64,000 nucleotides of DNA, from the NCBI RefSeq assembly GCF_023702065.1, contig NZ_QFDM01000003.1, forward strand, positions 248,001 to 312,000, given 5' to 3'. Positions 43,378 to 48,410 of this stretch are shown here, piece after piece. The translations under genes were made by a program, and so were the position numbers. Position 1 is the stretch's first letter; every line of letters starts with the position of its first letter. The DNA is from Methanoculleus oceani (GTDB lineage Archaea; Halobacteriota; Methanomicrobia; Methanomicrobiales; Methanoculleaceae). Below the pieces are notes generated by a model. It did not search any database, was not told the DNA's origin, and was given only the letters and a program-made list of their open reading frames with translations.

Positions 43378-43533
43378 ATGGCAGATTTTGCAGGCGGATA
43401 TGCCGGAGTCGGAGCGGCGCTCGGGATGATCGCGGGACTGATGCTCGCCGGGCTGCCCGGCGCGGTTGCGGGCACCGCAGTCGGTGCGGTTGCCGGGTGG
43501 TACTTCGGGAAAAGGGCACCTCCCGTTCAGTAG
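43378..43533 (+). CDS. glycine-zipper small membrane peptide
   Basis: A 51-residue peptide beginning MADFAGGYAGVGAALGMIAG with two short hydrophobic stretches of Gly/Ala zipper type (LAGLPGAVAGTAVGAVAGWY) and a basic end (FGKRAPPVQ). Such peptides insert in membranes and can assemble. No clear ribosome-binding site is present, apart from a gcggagggg stretch 20 bases upstream. Its 3' end overlaps the ABC ATPase gene by 7 bases on the other strand. Confidence 0.6.
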   Translation: MADFAGGYAGVGAALGMIAGLMLAGLPGAVAGTAVGAVAGWYFGKRAPPVQ

Positions 43534-44342
43534 CCCGTCGCGTAATAGTAGCCGTCCTCTTCCCGGACGCGGACCGGGACGCGGAAGAGGTCGCCGACGG
43601 CCCCGTCGGTCAGGACTTCCGCCTTTGGGCCGTCCATCCGGACGGCGCCGTCCCGCATCAGGACGACACGGGAGATCTCGGGGATGATGTCGTGGAGATT
43701 GTGGGTCACGAGGATGACGCCGGTGCCCGACCGGGCAATCTTTCGGAGCGTCTTTCTGAAGGTGTGGAGCGCGTGGAGATCGAGGCTGTTCGTGGGCTCG
43801 TCGAGGAGGAGGGTACCCGGGTCGTGTACCAGCGCCCTCCCGATCAGGAGCCTGCGTGCCTCGCCCGAGGATATCTCCGTCATCGGGCGGTCGGCGAGGT
43901 GGGCGACCTCGAGGAACTCGAGGATCTTGTCCGCCTTTCGCTCCATCGCGTCCGTCACCTCGTGGGAGAGGAAGAGCCCGATGCTCGAGAAGAACCCCGA
44001 GAGCACGACCTCGCGGCCCGATATGCTCCGGGTGAAGGTCTGCTGGAGGTCGCCGGAGACAAGCCCGAGGTGGGACCGAAGGTCGAAGGCATCCCACGTA
44101 TCCCGCCCCCGGAACCTGAAGGTGACGTCCTGCCGCTGGCGGGAGGGGTAGTACTCGCGGGTGATCGTCCTGATGAGCGACGATTTTCCGGCACCGTTCG
44201 GCCCGAGGATGGCAATATGCTCTCCCTCCCGGATCGTGAGCGATACTGAGTCGAGGAGAATTCTCCCGTTCCGGACCACGCTGACGTTTTTAAACTCGAC
44301 CAGCGGGGAGGACGGGTGAGCGGCGGCGGTGCCGTCAGTCAT
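43527..44342 (-). CDS. ABC transporter ATP-binding protein, orphan
   Basis: A 271-residue ABC ATPase. Walker A is GPNGAGKSSLIRTI (about residues 47-60), signature ISSGEARRLLIGRALVHDP, Walker B LLLDEPTNSLD, and the H-loop is VTHNLHD. The signature has SSGEA instead of the common LSGGQ. The closest group is the molybdate/iron-like or ModF/YlmA-type single ATPases that have no permease. No permease or binding protein is nearby. Confidence 0.88.
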   Translation of the reverse strand: MTDGTAAAHPSSPLVEFKNVSVVRNGRILLDSVSLTIREGEHIAILGPNGAGKSSLIRTITREYYPSRQRQDVTFRFRGRDTWDAFDLRSHLGLVSGDLQQTFTRSISGREVVLSGFFSSIGLFLSHEVTDAMERKADKILEFLEVAHLADRPMTEISSGEARRLLIGRALVHDPGTLLLDEPTNSLDLHALHTFRKTLRKIARSGTGVILVTHNLHDIIPEISRVVLMRDGAVRMDGPKAEVLTDGAVGDLFRVPVRVREEDGYYYATGY

Positions 44343-44450: not shown

Positions 44451-45197
44451 TCATCGCGGGGAACCGAGCAGCGCGGCAACCCTCTCCGGGTCGTCCGCGT
44501 AGACGTGGAGGAACCCGGCGGGTTCCAGCCTCACCCAGACGCGGCCGGGATACCGCAGACTGACCAGGCCACGATAGAGCAACTCCAGCATAAATGCCAT
44601 CCAGCCGACCGCCAGGAGAACCTGAAAGCCGAAATAGGGGTTGAAGGCCTGGTCGCCGAAATAGCGCATCAACCAGTTCCCTACGCCGGCAAAGAATATC
44701 GCTGCAGTCATGATTATCAGGAGGAGCGCGGACAACCAGCGGGGTATGGAGAGGTAGGGTCGTTTCACCTCGACCGACCTTACCGTATCCTTTCCAAAGA
44801 CGAGGGGCCGGATATGCGATCTCCGGACAATGACGGAGTTCCCGGAGAATTCTATCATGGTTCGGTAGGGATCGAAGTAGATGCGCCATGCAGTCCATGC
44901 CAGAAGGGAAACAGCCATGAAAGTAAAGATGAGCCCCGGCCACAGGGAGGGGATCAGGACGGATATCACGAAGAGGAGGAGGAAAACGAGGACGGCAAAC
45001 GGCATCAGCACAAAGAAGCGAGGACTGGTGTACTCCACGAACACGTCCTCCACCACCTCCCGGCTGCCGTCCGCCGCCGTCCCGAGCCCGATCTCATCGC
45101 CCGGCGCGGCGTACCGCCGTCGGCAGGCGCCGGCAGCTGCCGCATTCGGGCACCACCCCATCCACCGGCGTATTGTCTCGGAGAGTTTCATCGTCAT
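44451..45197 (-). CDS. DUF1673-type membrane protein, GWCPNA motif (fifth gene of operon)
   Basis: A 248-residue membrane protein with N-terminal cytosolic motif TIRRWMGWCPNAAAAG and a linker of about 40 residues. Four transmembrane helices follow (FFVLMPFAVLVFLLLFVISVL; LIFTFMAVSLLAWTAW; LSALLLIIMTAAIFFAGV; FQVLLAVGWMAFML). Between helices 2 and 3 is a PH-like beta segment (TMIEFSGNSVIVRRSHIRPLVF). The tail VYADDPERVAALLG is shared with the paralogue at 45673-46362. Last of five overlapping genes beginning with an HTH regulator. Function unknown. Confidence 0.8.
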   Translation of the reverse strand: MTMKLSETIRRWMGWCPNAAAAGACRRRYAAPGDEIGLGTAADGSREVVEDVFVEYTSPRFFVLMPFAVLVFLLLFVISVLIPSLWPGLIFTFMAVSLLAWTAWRIYFDPYRTMIEFSGNSVIVRRSHIRPLVFGKDTVRSVEVKRPYLSIPRWLSALLLIIMTAAIFFAGVGNWLMRYFGDQAFNPYFGFQVLLAVGWMAFMLELLYRGLVSLRYPGRVWVRLEPAGFLHVYADDPERVAALLGSPR

Positions 45198-45673
45198 GCG
45201 GCTGCCTCCCCGCCGAGGTTTGCGCGGTAGATCTCTTTCCGGTGGAAGAGGTAAATTATCATGATGATGATCCCGCCCACAAGCGTCGCCGCCCCCCAGG
45301 TCAGCGGCTGCCAGGTGACGACATCGCCTAGCAGCGTCTCCTTCTCGAAGTTGTCCCCGGCACGGATACTCTGCGCGTCATAATACACGGCGACGGCGGA
45401 GAGGACGACGAGGAGCGGGAGGAACTCACGGTCATACACGACCGGGAGGAGCCAGGCCAGGGCAATGAGGATCAGCAGCATGTTGTCCTGGTAGCCACTC
45501 CGTTCGCCGCCTGCGGTGCCGGCCGGTTCCGGGCCGGGGTCTGGCTCCGGCTTCGCTCTCTGCCACGCATCCCCGTAGCCCGCTTCCGCGCTCGTGCGCC
45601 GGACGGGCCTGACGGCGTCGGCGTTCGGGCACCAGCCGAGCTTCTTCCTGATATACTCCAGAAACACCGTCAT
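45194..45673 (-). CDS. GWCPNA-motif membrane protein, short form (fourth gene)
   Basis: A 159-residue member of the same set. It starts MTVFLEYIRKKLGWCPNADA and has a Pro-rich linker. Three hydrophobic stretches follow (MLLILIALAWLLPVVY; FLPLLVVLSAVAVYY; ATLVGGIIIMIIYLF). It lacks the beta segment and the DDPER tail of its paralogues. Translational overlap is 1 base with the gene before and 4 bases with the gene after, so expression is tightly linked. Confidence 0.75.
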   Translation of the reverse strand: MTVFLEYIRKKLGWCPNADAVRPVRRTSAEAGYGDAWQRAKPEPDPGPEPAGTAGGERSGYQDNMLLILIALAWLLPVVYDREFLPLLVVLSAVAVYYDAQSIRAGDNFEKETLLGDVVTWQPLTWGAATLVGGIIIMIIYLFHRKEIYRANLGGEAAA

Positions 45674-46362
45674 CAGGCCACCCCCAGCGTTCGGGCTATC
45701 CGTTCAGGGTCGTCGGTGTAGATTGCGGCGATCCTCTTTTCCGTCGTTATCGTCAGGGTTCGCGGGTAACGTGTCCGCACGCAGGCGCGGTAGAAGATCA
45801 CGGGGAAGAAGAACGCGCCGCCAAGCCCGAAGATAAACCGCATGGAGGTCGGATTATCCCATCCATAGTATATACCGCCGGCCGCCGATACGAGAAGCGC
45901 CGCCAGTGTCGTCGCAAGGAGCCAGAAAGGGACAGGGAATCTGTTCTCTCCCACCTCCGCCTTCACGATGGCATCCTTCGGGATGACAATCGGCCGGAAA
46001 AGCGGCCGTCTGATGGTGATCGTCTCCGAAGAGATCTCGACGCGGGCTCTTCTCAGAACCCCGTATAACTCCACACCGGAGAAAGCCAGCAGGATAGCCA
46101 GCAGGATAAAGCGCCCTGCAGGGGCTGTCACAGCGAGGCAGCCGATGAGCAGAGCGCCGGCAACAATCAGAATGAGGTACATCGCCGGAGTGCCGATCGG
46201 GCCGTAGTCAACCAGTGCACCCTCCACCACATCCCGGCTGCCGTCCGCCGCCGTCCCGATCTCACCGTCCAGCGCAGTATACCGGCGGATGGTGCCAGCC
46301 GCCGCTGCGTTCGGGCACCAGCCCATCAGCCTCTGTATCGCCCGGGGGAATCTCATCGGCAT
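45673..46362 (-). CDS. DUF1673-type membrane protein, GWCPNA motif (third gene)
   Basis: A 229-residue membrane protein. The start at 46362 is supported by ggagga 7 bases upstream and by the conserved motif RAIQRLMGWCPNAAAAGTIR just inside; longer readings run into neighbouring genes. Four transmembrane helices and a beta segment (VEISSETITIRRPLFRPIVI) are arranged as in the fifth gene, and the tail IYTDDPERIARTLGVA matches. These two are close paralogues. Overlaps the second gene by 10 bases. Confidence 0.8.
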   Translation of the reverse strand: MPMRFPRAIQRLMGWCPNAAAAGTIRRYTALDGEIGTAADGSRDVVEGALVDYGPIGTPAMYLILIVAGALLIGCLAVTAPAGRFILLAILLAFSGVELYGVLRRARVEISSETITIRRPLFRPIVIPKDAIVKAEVGENRFPVPFWLLATTLAALLVSAAGGIYYGWDNPTSMRFIFGLGGAFFFPVIFYRACVRTRYPRTLTITTEKRIAAIYTDDPERIARTLGVA

Positions 46363-46964
46363 ATGGTCTCCTCCTGCGCCACCGTACCTAGAACATACGT
46401 CGACCCAATCTCTGCGATCAGGGTCGCCTGGTGCTGCCGCTCCCAGACGATTGTAACGCCGTACCACGTCCAGAAGATGAGACTCAGGCCCAGCACGAGC
46501 CCGAGAATCCGGTCGAACGTGCCGTCCTGCACAAGGTACACCATACAGGCGACGAGAAGAACAGCGGCCACCGGCAGACTCAGATACCTGATGATACGCT
46601 GTCTCCGGGTCATGTTGGCCCGGGTAAACTCCCCGGCGGCAACCCGTGCATACTGTTTCTGGTAACTGAGCAGGAAGCCGAGGGCCGCTCCTGCCCCGAT
46701 GGCGAGGCCTGTCCACATGGTCAGGTACCCCGGAGCATCCTCGACCAGGATAAAGAGCGCCGCTGTCGCCGCGGAGAAGGCTATTGCTGCGACCAGCAGC
46801 TGGTTGTGGTAGCGGTGCCACCACCCGGGTTCGGTCCGGGGGACGCAGTCCCTCCCCCCCGCCGCTGCGGCCGTCACCGGCCGCACCGCGAGATCCGCCC
46901 GCATCGACGCCTGCAGGGGGCACCAGCCCAGGTACGCCCGGATTGTCTCCATGAGAGGCATCAT
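46353..46964 (-). CDS. GWCP-motif membrane protein, divergent (second gene)
   Basis: A 203-residue protein starting MMPLMETIRAYLGWCPLQAS, the same N-terminal motif with PL in place of PNA. Four transmembrane helices in two pairs follow (LLVAAIAFSAATAALFIL; WTGLAIGAGAALGFLL; LSLPVAAVLLVACMVYL; LGLVLGLSLIFWTWYGVTI). No recognised enzyme domain. It overlaps the regulator gene by 4 bases. Confidence 0.75.
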   Translation of the reverse strand: MMPLMETIRAYLGWCPLQASMRADLAVRPVTAAAAGGRDCVPRTEPGWWHRYHNQLLVAAIAFSAATAALFILVEDAPGYLTMWTGLAIGAGAALGFLLSYQKQYARVAAGEFTRANMTRRQRIIRYLSLPVAAVLLVACMVYLVQDGTFDRILGLVLGLSLIFWTWYGVTIVWERQHQATLIAEIGSTYVLGTVAQEETICR

Positions 46965-47407
46965 ACCATCTCCCGGAGTTTCGCAAAGAGTTCGTCGGCC
47001 AGACGGGTCGGGTCGTCGGTCTTTTCAAGCGCAATCCCCAGTTCGTCTGCGTAGCCCCAGAGGAGTTCGATGCACCGGGCGTACCGGGGACATGCGCCGC
47101 AGTCGCCCTCGTGCTCGTACCAGACCTGCACGCCGTGGTTGGCCGAGACGAAGACGATGGCCGCTGCATTGAAGGGGACCGAGCGGCCGAAGAGGACTCC
47201 AATCTCTGCGTTCAGGCGCTCGACCTCGATCTGGTTCGCCTGCGCCATCTCTAGAAGCGTCTCCTCGACCTTCCGGTCCATGGCAAGCAGCGCCTTCGAG
47301 ACCGCCTGGCGGGATATGCGGAAGCGGTCCGCGATATGGACGTTCGCAAGACCGGTGCGGCGGAGCTTCCAGAACGCAAACTGCCTGTCGTTCAGGGGGA
47401 GTGGCAT
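46961..47407 (-). CDS. HTH regulator with Cys cluster (first gene of GWCP operon)
   Basis: A 148-residue predicted DNA-binding protein. Residues 5-50 form a helix-turn-helix (NDRQFAFWKLRRTGLANVHI then ADRFRISRQAVSKALLAMD) of the sigma-region-4/Tox kind. A coiled coil spans about 50-72 and a C-terminal sensor-like part holds CGACPRYARC (C-x2-C-x5-C) near 108-118, which could bind metal or respond to redox state. It leads five genes with overlapping ends. A 6-bp inverted repeat between its TATA box and start codon suggests that it represses its own operon. Confidence 0.78.
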   Translation of the reverse strand: MPLPLNDRQFAFWKLRRTGLANVHIADRFRISRQAVSKALLAMDRKVEETLLEMAQANQIEVERLNAEIGVLFGRSVPFNAAAIVFVSANHGVQVWYEHEGDCGACPRYARCIELLWGYADELGIALEKTDDPTRLADELFAKLREMV

Positions 47408-47409
47408 GC

Positions 47410-47429
47410 GTCAACAATCACAGGTTGAC
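47410..47429. promoter_or_regulatory. candidate operator, inverted repeat at the start of the HTH/GWCP operon
   Basis: GTCAAC (47410-47415) and GTTGAC (47424-47429) form a perfect 6-bp inverted repeat with 8 bases between. It fills the space between the TATA element and the start codon of the regulator, covering the expected transcription start, the usual place for an archaeal repressor site. Confidence 0.55.
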
Positions 47430-47440
47430 AATATATACAT
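47429..47440 (-). promoter_or_regulatory. TATA box of the HTH/GWCP operon
   Basis: On the minus strand ATGTATATATTG is a strong TATA element about 22-32 bases before the start codon at 47407, predicting a leaderless transcript. Confidence 0.6.
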
Positions 47441-47633
47441 TTCGATATTTCCTGCCGATCCGGCTCGTGTGCGGTTCCCGGCAGCCGGCTCTCCCCCGTC
47501 GAGATCTTCCTTTTCAGTAAGGACGGTGATAGTCCGTCAGCTCGGTACTCCGCCGGGTTCCTGCTGAGGCCGGACGCGCCACGCCAACAAGCGGATCAGA
47601 ATATTAATCCCCGCCGCCCTAAAACAGGGTCAT

Positions 47634-48410
47634 ATGGACACAGCACTGCGCGACGCTTACATCAGGCTCCACGAGAAGTACTTCCCCGGGACGGACCTCC
47701 CGATCGCCTTCGAGGTCGGGGGCGCGACGGATGGGGTGGAGAAGGCCCCCGCCCCGAAGGGCTGGAGGTGCTTCGTCTGCGACCTTACAAAGGTGAGAAA
47801 CGGCAAAAGCCTCGTCTTTTCCGAAGAGTCGATCGGGTGCCGCGGAGGGAGGTTCTACCTCGGCTACGACGCCGAGCGGTTCCCCGACTTCCGCTACTTC
47901 CTCTCCTACGGAAAACCCGGCGAGATGGAGGGGGAGCGCTACAAGCAGACGCCGGAGATCGTGGACGAACTCGACCGGGGAACCACCCGGATACCGACGA
48001 AGGGAAAAGAGATCGTATTCAAGCGCTGGGACAACCTCACGGACGCGGACAAGCCGGACGCCGTCGTCTTCTTCGCCCGGCCGGAGGTGCTCTCCGGCCT
48101 ATTCACGCTTGCAAATTTCGACCGGGCCGACCCGAACGGGGTTGTCTGCCCGTTCGGCGCCGGGTGCAGCTCGGTCTTTTACTTCCCCTGGCTCGAGCAG
48201 CAGAACGAGAATCCAAGAGCGGTGCTCGGGATGTTCGACCCCTCGGCACGGCCCTGCGTCCCGCTGGACGTCCTGACGATGGCCTTCCCCATGAAGAAGT
48301 TTGAGAAGGTGATCGGTTTCATGGAGGAGAGTTTCCTCATCACGGAGTCGTGGGGGAAGGTGATGAAGAAGATCGAGCGGAGCGACAGACTGTATTCACC
48401 TAAAAAATGA
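47634..48410 (+). CDS. DUF169 family protein (paralogue 2)
   Basis: A 258-residue DUF169 protein. LPIAFEVGGATDGVEKAPAP near the N-terminus, an adjacent Cys pair in WRCFVCDLTKVRNGKS, CRGGRFYLGYD and VVCPFGAGCSSVFYFP mark the family. It is diverged from the paralogue at 4784-5500, which is about 20 residues shorter. The cysteine spacing hints at metal or cofactor binding. A TATA-like ATATTAAT at 47601-47608 is the likely promoter. Confidence 0.8.
   Translation: MDTALRDAYIRLHEKYFPGTDLPIAFEVGGATDGVEKAPAPKGWRCFVCDLTKVRNGKSLVFSEESIGCRGGRFYLGYDAERFPDFRYFLSYGKPGEMEGERYKQTPEIVDELDRGTTRIPTKGKEIVFKRWDNLTDADKPDAVVFFARPEVLSGLFTLANFDRADPNGVVCPFGAGCSSVFYFPWLEQQNENPRAVLGMFDPSARPCVPLDVLTMAFPMKKFEKVIGFMEESFLITESWGKVMKKIERSDRLYSPKK

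Follow-up and report, generated by a model that had tools for sequence, protein, structure and literature searches.

A Tfx-like regulator and membrane proteins with a shared GWCP head in a candidate autoregulated operon of methanogens and ANME archaea

As one HTH regulator gene followed by four membrane-protein genes whose products start alike and then differ, the operon at 44451-47407 of the window (the whole 64,000-nucleotide stretch of Methanoculleus oceani DNA analysed here) raises the question of whether the regulator and the shared start belong to one system, and what such a system would do. The five genes are all on the minus strand and overlap by 4 nt (HTH/M1), 10 nt (M1/M2), 1 nt (M2/M3) and 4 nt (M3/M4), in agreement with an earlier note on this DNA that described a five-gene overlapping operon; the limits given there enclose the five genes but leave out an operator at 47410..47429, just upstream.

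The regulator and its His/Cys3 motif

The regulator (46961..47407, minus strand, 148 aa, P0001), a proposed autorepressor, is a divergent Tfx-like protein as judged by profiles. The TIGR00721 profile of the archaeal Tfx family, known from Tfx of M. thermautotrophicus, matches it with 17.9 bits (E 0.0022), below the curated cut-off of 60.25 bits; among its relatives weak matches are seen in 29 of 32 members, the best one (E 1.7e-5) being below the cut-off as well. The likeness lies in the N-terminal HTH and the similar length, whereas all scores stay under the curated cut-off and the C-terminal half with the His/Cys3 loop has no convincing match in the Tfx family. None of the 32 members matches ArsR or SdpR above cut-off, and the SdpR model matches just two of them (best E 0.059). 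The AlphaFold2 model of the regulator reaches a pLDDT of 89.9, and a structure search with it gave no significant fold match, the top ones being the archaeal regulators 8hno/8hnp (E 0.18, TM about 0.3).

The Cys cluster C-x2-C-x5-C noted earlier is present as C103-x2-C106-x5-C112, and four residues ahead of C103 there is also H99, which had escaped the first reading. In our alignments the three Cys are invariant and H99 is nearly so. The whole motif, H99-x3-C103-x2-C106-x5-C112 (47072..47113, minus strand), is predicted from this conservation and from sub-cut-off PF10588 matches to hold Fe-S (or Zn) ligands. PF10588 (NADH-G_4Fe-4S_3) matches 14 of the 32 members at residues 98-126, with a best E of 4.8e-4 and a best score of 20.0 bits under the gathering cut-off of 27. 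The spacing H-x3-C-x2-C-x5-C with a following C-x-E-L is that of the known His/Cys3 [4Fe-4S] sites of NuoG N5 and [FeFe]-hydrogenase (PF10588, PF22609), and the regulator has the same; unlike those, it is a transcription factor with a short motif match under cut-off. The Cys cluster is part of a His/Cys3 motif whose closest likeness is a [4Fe-4S] site, and it would more readily carry Fe-S than Zn.

One N-terminal head, several kinds of membrane body

All four membrane proteins, encoded on the minus strand, carry a short N-terminal helix followed by LGWCP or MGWCPNA, just as was claimed before. M1 (46353..46964, 203 aa, about 4 TM, head METIRAYLGWCP) has YLGWCP, with GWCP at 46917..46928; M2 (45673..46362, 229 aa) has LMGWCPNA, with GWCP at 46312..46323; M3 (45194..45673, 159 aa, about 3 TM, head VFLEYIRKKLGWCPNA) has KLGWCPNA, with GWCP at 45626..45637; and M4 (44451..45197, 248 aa, C-terminus YADDPERVAALLGSPR) has WMGWCPNA, with GWCP at 45147..45158. 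The earlier proposal to check whether GWCP is kept outside this locus has a clear answer: across two archaeal classes it occurs in 234 of 252 heads, the Cys being kept in all 252 with a search pattern that demanded it. Among 61 M4 relatives that diverge elsewhere, no stretch but WCP is invariant, and the head Cys is the one invariant column in an alignment of 150 head proteins, surviving even a change from GWCP to GLC[RP]K. The head is a separable module joined to unrelated membrane bodies: it is found on 18 body clusters, and in profile comparisons the body families have only 23-29 head columns in common.

The earlier assignment of the proteins to DUF1673 (PF07895, arCOG06827, supercluster SC.00027), a family defined by Methanosarcina membrane proteins of this kind, stands for M1 (37.3 bits, E 3.6e-9) and M4 (33.2 bits, E 6e-8), which exceed the Pfam gathering cut-off of 30.4 bits, but not for M2 (29.0 bits) and M3 (26.8 bits), where the match falls under it and is confined to the head. 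The MGWCP motif of DUF1673 proteins was noted in 2014 (PMC4158269), and apart from this no earlier account of the system was found in the literature searched. Pfam treats the head plus one body as a single family, whereas here the head is separable, sits on many bodies and is tied to a regulator and an operator.

For M2 and M4 a beta segment and a DDPER tail had been listed as features; both are present, but they are best read as parts of one split PH-like domain with 4 TM. In the AlphaFold2 model of M4 (pLDDT 78.8), strands at 47-57, 113-118, 121-125, 132-135, 139-145, 218-224 and 228-234 and a helix at 237-245 are separated by inserted TM pairs, and the top fold matches are mostly PH, PTB or FERM, all with E of 0.1 or worse, so that the reading comes from topology and such matches. 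A single profile takes in both M2-type and M4-type proteins, bPH_6 matches M2 under cut-off (E 0.015), and the M3 head type occurs on a 247-aa PH body in relatives. The window bodies are of split-PH and DUF1673 type, neither SdpI nor Yip1; a Pfam search found no SdpI domain in the four proteins. In relatives the bodies include bona fide SdpI+DUF1648 (E down to 7e-18) and Yip1 (E down to 1e-19); SdpI-bearing head proteins occur at loci L147, L148, L150-L152, L154 and L257, and L147 and L152 are minimal two-gene operons of a regulator and one head-SdpI protein. A 6-TM, 255-aa Methanoculleus body was considered as a divergent SdpI and dropped, as profile comparison found only the head in common.

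Pairing of regulator, head and operator

The regulator together with GWCP membrane proteins is conserved in Methanomicrobiales, Methanosarcinaceae, ANME-2 and Methanoperedens, with at least 157 matched loci of the regulator family and from one to about a dozen head proteins per operon, most operons carrying several. A check suggested by the earlier note, namely whether DUF1673 neighbourhoods hold the same HTH, found the two linked wherever they occur: among 127 distinct regulator genes whose downstream sequence is present, 122 have a head protein directly after them. The five exceptions include two with frameshifted heads and two with heads further downstream. Several other candidates for exceptions were rejected: L064 has a GRCP variant of the head, three loci of the TRQ class described below have GLC[RP]K heads that the search had missed, and L155 lies at a contig end. 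Over 295 genomes of the phylum, the HTH and DUF1673 tend to occur in the same genomes (Fisher p about 6e-30, a raw value that ignores kinship); one PF07895 match, in genome G366, was taken as spurious, spanning positions 80-191 only and having no head.

The regulators fall into two classes by their recognition-helix segment. Those with SRQAVSK, as in the window (47294..47314, minus strand), have a GWCP-type head immediately downstream in 114 of 119 cases with downstream DNA, and those with TRQGVSQ have a GLC[RP]K head there in 8 of 8, never GWCP; cross-pairing was not seen among the 127 loci. The pairing of TRQGVSQ with GLC[RP]K probably goes back to one evolutionary event, because it is confined to one clade. 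The 155-aa forms of TRQ-class regulators were not accepted, their start codons being mis-called and reading through the operator.

In front of the regulator, a BRE/TATA element (tcgaaatgtatatatt on the gene strand, 47430..47445) is recognised from the sequence and from the profile of relatives, 121 of which have in common AAA..TTTATA at -37..-24. Between the TATA box and the start codon, 2 nt upstream of the latter, sits the palindrome GTCAAC-CTGTGATT-GTTGAC (47410..47429, minus strand), of the form GTCAAC-N8-GTTGAC, which is new here; the start codon of the operon is probably leaderless. The same place, -22 to -3, is taken in 115 of 121 relatives' loci, with -23 in 3 more. The TRQ class has GTAAAT-N8-ATTTAC at this position in 8 of 8 loci, and therefore regulator and site have changed together.

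In the genome of the window the operator is the sole exact match (reversed-pattern control, 0). Methanoculleus-type genomes with a match have one exact operator each, or two where the regulator has two copies, always at the regulator start, and in the 7 genomes without an operator match no regulator match was found either. From its position and uniqueness, the site is presumably bound by the regulator, which would repress its own operon. The single operator in this genome, the regulator's own, implies a repressor dedicated to its own operon rather than one that, like a sigma factor, controls a large regulon. A wider regulon was looked for in the same genome and discarded: both one-mismatch sites fall within open frames and lack a TATA-like context, and none of three two-mismatch matches inspected is promoter-like. 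In five Methanoregula-type genomes the operator occurs once more, away from the regulator start; 4 such extra sites were read, and all 4 precede a stand-alone Yip1-type gene.

A proposed membrane-response switch and its alternatives

We regard it as somewhat probable that the locus is a self-contained autoregulated membrane-response operon, with SdpR/SdpI-like logic and many interchangeable receptors. The Tfx-like repressor, presumably dimeric, would occupy the palindrome that separates the TATA box from the start and block its own operon. The downstream genes would supply membrane proteins, from one to about a dozen of them, which differ in their bodies but have in common a cytosolic handle at the N-terminus, made up of a short cationic helix and Gly-Trp-Cys-Pro. 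A body would sense a membrane insult, in all likelihood from a peptide toxin or some other envelope perturbant, upon which its handle would bind the repressor near the His/Cys3 loop and retain it at the membrane; with the repressor held there, the promoter would open and synthesis of the protective membrane proteins would rise. In this scheme we infer both the binding of head to regulator and the ligand and protective output (envelope or peptide-toxin protection). A shared head on different bodies, all communicating with one regulator, is the reading we favour, in agreement with the earlier suggestion, and it is supported because regulator class and head class change together (TRQGVSQ with GLC[RP]K). 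Given the single operator in this genome, SdpR/SdpI is a closer parallel than the anti-sigma arrangement drawn on earlier.

Like SdpR/SdpI of Bacillus subtilis, the operon with its dedicated operator combines a (proposed) autorepressor with polytopic membrane proteins; true SdpI/DUF1648 bodies are found in some relatives, where the minimal operons consist of the regulator and one SdpI protein. In contrast, SdpR is of ArsR type, whereas the regulator here is Tfx-like with a His/Cys3 site, and SdpR/SdpI has one membrane protein where the archaeal system has as many as a dozen receptors, unrelated in their bodies, and an added GWCP handle. Membrane sequestration of the repressor is a feature of SdpI and is proposed here by analogy. 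A further likeness is to the Sigma-W antibiosis proteins of Bacillus, where YdbST are PH proteins. In Bacillus the SdpI paralogue YfhL, along with YdbST and YknWXYZ, confers protection against peptide antibiotics (PMC8144471), and YknW belongs to the Yip1 family (PMC4887032). Here all three of these body types (PH, Yip1, SdpI) occur under one regulator, whereas the Bacillus set is controlled by an ECF sigma factor and has no shared head. Rather tentatively, the archaeal system may constitute a new signalling class, in which a dedicated autorepressor, possibly with a [4Fe-4S] cluster, is read by an open-ended, recombining set of receptors, clients being gained via the 20-residue GWCP handle, with handle, repressor loop and operator co-evolving, for which the TRQGVSQ/GLC[RP]K class is the example. 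If the switch proposed above is right, methanogens and ANME archaea possess an immunity switch like SdpR/SdpI but extended to many receptors, and peptide-toxin warfare or envelope stress sensing would be implied in their communities. DUF1673, an uncharacterised expansion of methanogen membrane proteins, and the regulator family gain a testable function, and the genetically tractable Methanosarcina allows a direct test of the mechanism through the operator, the head Cys and the paired regulator and head classes.

The head might instead be an assembly or membrane-docking module of a hetero-oligomeric complex, having no contact with the regulator, which as an Fe-S redox or oxygen sensor alone would set the amount of complex. 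We hold this for unlikely, yet worth serious attention: arrays usually contain several head proteins, a short cationic helix plus WCP suits interfacial docking, and with its His/Cys3 motif the regulator would be able to sense unaided; conservation of the head could indeed stem from co-assembly of the membrane proteins, or in part from recombination among adjacent genes. However, single-head operons (9 of 56 long loci; L147, L152) keep the head with nothing to co-assemble, and heads change along with the regulator class. The persistence of the head Cys through the change from GWCP to GLC[RP]K, as the one invariant column of the 150-protein alignment, would also suit a residue that binds a metal or cluster and is shared with, or passed to, the His/Cys3 site in membrane metal or redox homeostasis; this seems improbable to us, as the regulator has four candidate ligands of its own and a domain search of the bodies found no transporter, metallochaperone or metal-binding domain.

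A conflict module of toxin-antitoxin or abortive-infection kind, with the heads as membrane-damaging effectors kept off by the regulator, would agree with a patchy presence (the complete genomes G011 and G031 have no system), a strongly varying copy number and the existence of frameshifted copies. We give it very little credence, since the recognisable bodies (SdpI, Yip1, PH-like) are immunity-protein types and not pore formers, the flanking genes are the same at almost all Methanoculleus loci, and convincing virus or plasmid copies were not found: two viral contigs match over only 38 residues at 45%, and plasmid matches are absent. As for remnants of the regulator, a 43-codon ORF in a 124-127 bp gap of ten relatives resembles its tail by eye, only the last 22 nt matching, and was rejected as a copy, with alignment scores equal to those of shuffles and a profile E of at least 0.28. 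True regulator-tail relics occur in two Methanosarcinaceae-type arrays.

The regulator and its head genes

The HTH regulator gene of the window (46961-47407, minus strand), whose protein is Tfx-like, is the first of five overlapping genes with four membrane-protein genes (M1-M4) behind it, the successive overlaps from the HTH gene through M4 being 4, 10, 1 and 4 nt. Every one of M1-M4 has an N-terminus with a short cationic helix and then GWCP, herein termed the head, the remainder being the body; as for Pfam DUF1673, M1 and M4 are above the cut-off and M2 and M3 match by the head only. The window's genome is of Methanoculleus type, as regulator relatives with 84-96% identity are in most cases Methanoculleus by name, and in nearly all Methanoculleus loci the array (the regulator and its head genes) is flanked by the same two genes, the downstream one at 43527-44342, presumably an ABC-type ATPase, and the upstream one at 47634-48410, which we take to be DUF169-like. 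These two genes are fixed neighbours, outside the regulator/head system.

In the parts of the literature available, the MGWCP motif and its expansion in Methanosarcina are already on record with no function given (PMC4158269, PMC4390880), and the searched passages of PMC4158269 name no regulator beside the MGWCP proteins. Literature searches, with most subscription papers outside their reach, found nothing for the motif with methanogens or for an iron-sulfur Tfx regulator.

Among 40 genomes of the window's family, the regulator and DUF1673 are each present in 30, nearly the same genomes, and the genes are adjacent. Moreover in the phylum (295 genomes), 29 of the 30 genomes with a DUF1673 match also have the regulator (Fisher p about 6e-30, relatedness ignored), and in the single one without it the match spans positions 80-191 only, the head not included. 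Another 11 genomes of the phylum have the regulator without a Pfam DUF1673 match; the five read (G046, G053, G060, G052 and G114, that is L144-L148) all have GWCP heads, sitting on bodies missed by Pfam DUF1673. A scan of the genome collection gave 157 regulator relatives, the best 80 of which belong to Methanomicrobiales, Methanosarcinaceae, ANME-2 and Methanoperedens, together with one Caldiserica-labelled contig that is probably mis-binned. Across 127 distinct regulators with downstream DNA, a GWCP-type head directly follows 114 of the 119 main-class regulators (recognition helix SRQAVSK), and a GLC[RP]K head all eight second-class ones (TRQGVSQ); the five main-class exceptions are two frameshifted heads, two cases of a headless membrane gene followed by head genes, and one without a head.

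The operator

A palindromic operator, GTCAAC-N8-GTTGAC (47410-47429), is located directly after the TATA and 2 nt before the regulator ATG. Of 121 main-class loci, 115 have it at exactly this position and 3 have it shifted by one base; 8 of 8 second-class loci keep the position too, with GTAAAT-N8-ATTTAC or a close variant as the sequence. Archaeal repressors commonly act from sites between TATA and start, and since the operator lies there, we read it as the putative site of autorepression by the regulator. From the TATA-to-ATG spacing we also infer that the regulator transcript is leaderless at its start.

Across 35 genomes of the genus, every genome with a match has a single exact site, or two where there are two regulator copies; the other 7 have none. 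The reversed pattern as a control gave one chance site in total. An order-wide scan with a stricter form of the site gave matches at regulator starts, one site in the array region of the genome G108, and one site each away from regulators in five Methanoregula-type genomes; four of these five were read and all precede a Yip1-type gene, one gene being Pfam-checked.

Loci L281-L284 of Methanoregula-type genomes have the operator at 1501-1520 ahead of a stand-alone Yip1-type membrane gene, with a TATA-like sequence near it in L281 and L284. The TRQGVSQ class, with GTAAAT-N8-ATTTAC operators and GLC[RP]K heads, is represented by L137, L148, L154, L158 and L159, and in this class adjoining genes for secreted-looking proteins carry their own operator. 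A third regulator copy (G034:C230:27691-27835) is degenerate, its operator still intact.

A proposed switch built on the head

Tfx models match 29 of 32 regulator relatives weakly, the window protein being under the cut-off throughout. The predicted structure (pLDDT 89.9) comprises an HTH whose third helix is long, a sheet of four strands, the Cys loop and two helices, and no significant PDB fold match was obtained for it, the archaeal regulators 8hno/8hnp being on top (E 0.18). The motif H99-x3-C103-x2-C106-x5-C112 is conserved among the regulators and by its sequence resembles the His/Cys3 [4Fe-4S] site that NuoG and hydrogenases carry; PF10588 reaches at best E 4.8e-4 (residues 98-126), below the cut-off.

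GWCP is found in 234 of 252 head genes (80 loci), usually behind E-x-I-[RK]-[KR], the Cys being in every head by design as the search pattern demanded it. The regulator is the sole partner encoded alongside all heads. In the second class its recognition helix is altered and its Cys loop goes from CxxCxRY to CxxCxE[YF], with a matching head change from GWCPN to GLC[RP]K; one side of this joint change is acidic and the other basic. Since regulator class and heads changed together, a pairing that rests on a single clade, the sequences point to a contact of the Cys loop with the head.

In Bacillus, YfhL (an SdpI paralogue), YdbST and YknWXYZ give protection from peptide toxins (PMC8144471), YknW being a Yip1 protein (PMC4887032). 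Because the same body types here come under a single regulator, and regulator and head-SdpI can also form a two-gene operon (L147, L152), we propose a switch like that of the Bacillus repressor SdpR and membrane immunity protein SdpI, which would be built around the shared head as a handle. The proposed likeness is in working only; the archaeal system is not a member, as its repressor is of a different family and the window bodies are not SdpI.

Bodies and possible array growth

Body clustering gave 20 groups, or 18 once two false heads were dropped, some of which may be distant relatives of one another. The profile alignments of M1-type with PH-type, and of 6-TM type with SdpI-type, are confined to the head. 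Bodies with family names in relatives are SdpI/DUF1648, Yip1 and GPDPase_memb/DUF6159. The predicted M4 structure has the head helix, a disordered linker and a PH-like barrel interrupted by two TM pairs, its fold matches being mostly PH, PTB and FERM domains, not one significant.

In Methanoculleus one body type can bear several heads in different genes, for example the PH247 body, which occurs 12 times with head type a and 6 times with type c, and a head-proximal 56-nt direct repeat (84% identical) is shared by M4 (45030-45085) and M2 (46204-46259). This repeat and the mixed pairings suggest recombination of heads and 5' ends between paralogues.

Pieces of the regulator C-terminal tail lie between head genes at G317:C4:24004-24114 (L130) and G260:C1:635801-635920 (L131), and give the impression that arrays have grown through tandem duplication of a regulator end with a head gene. 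A translationally coupled ORF of ~43 codons (MITLGAMDLVCTPVREIFG...) occupies the 124-127 bp gap after a head gene of 253-255 aa; it is open in 10 of 10 copies (L065, L068, L069, L072, L074, L079, L081, L083, L084 and L085), whose length differences are multiples of three.
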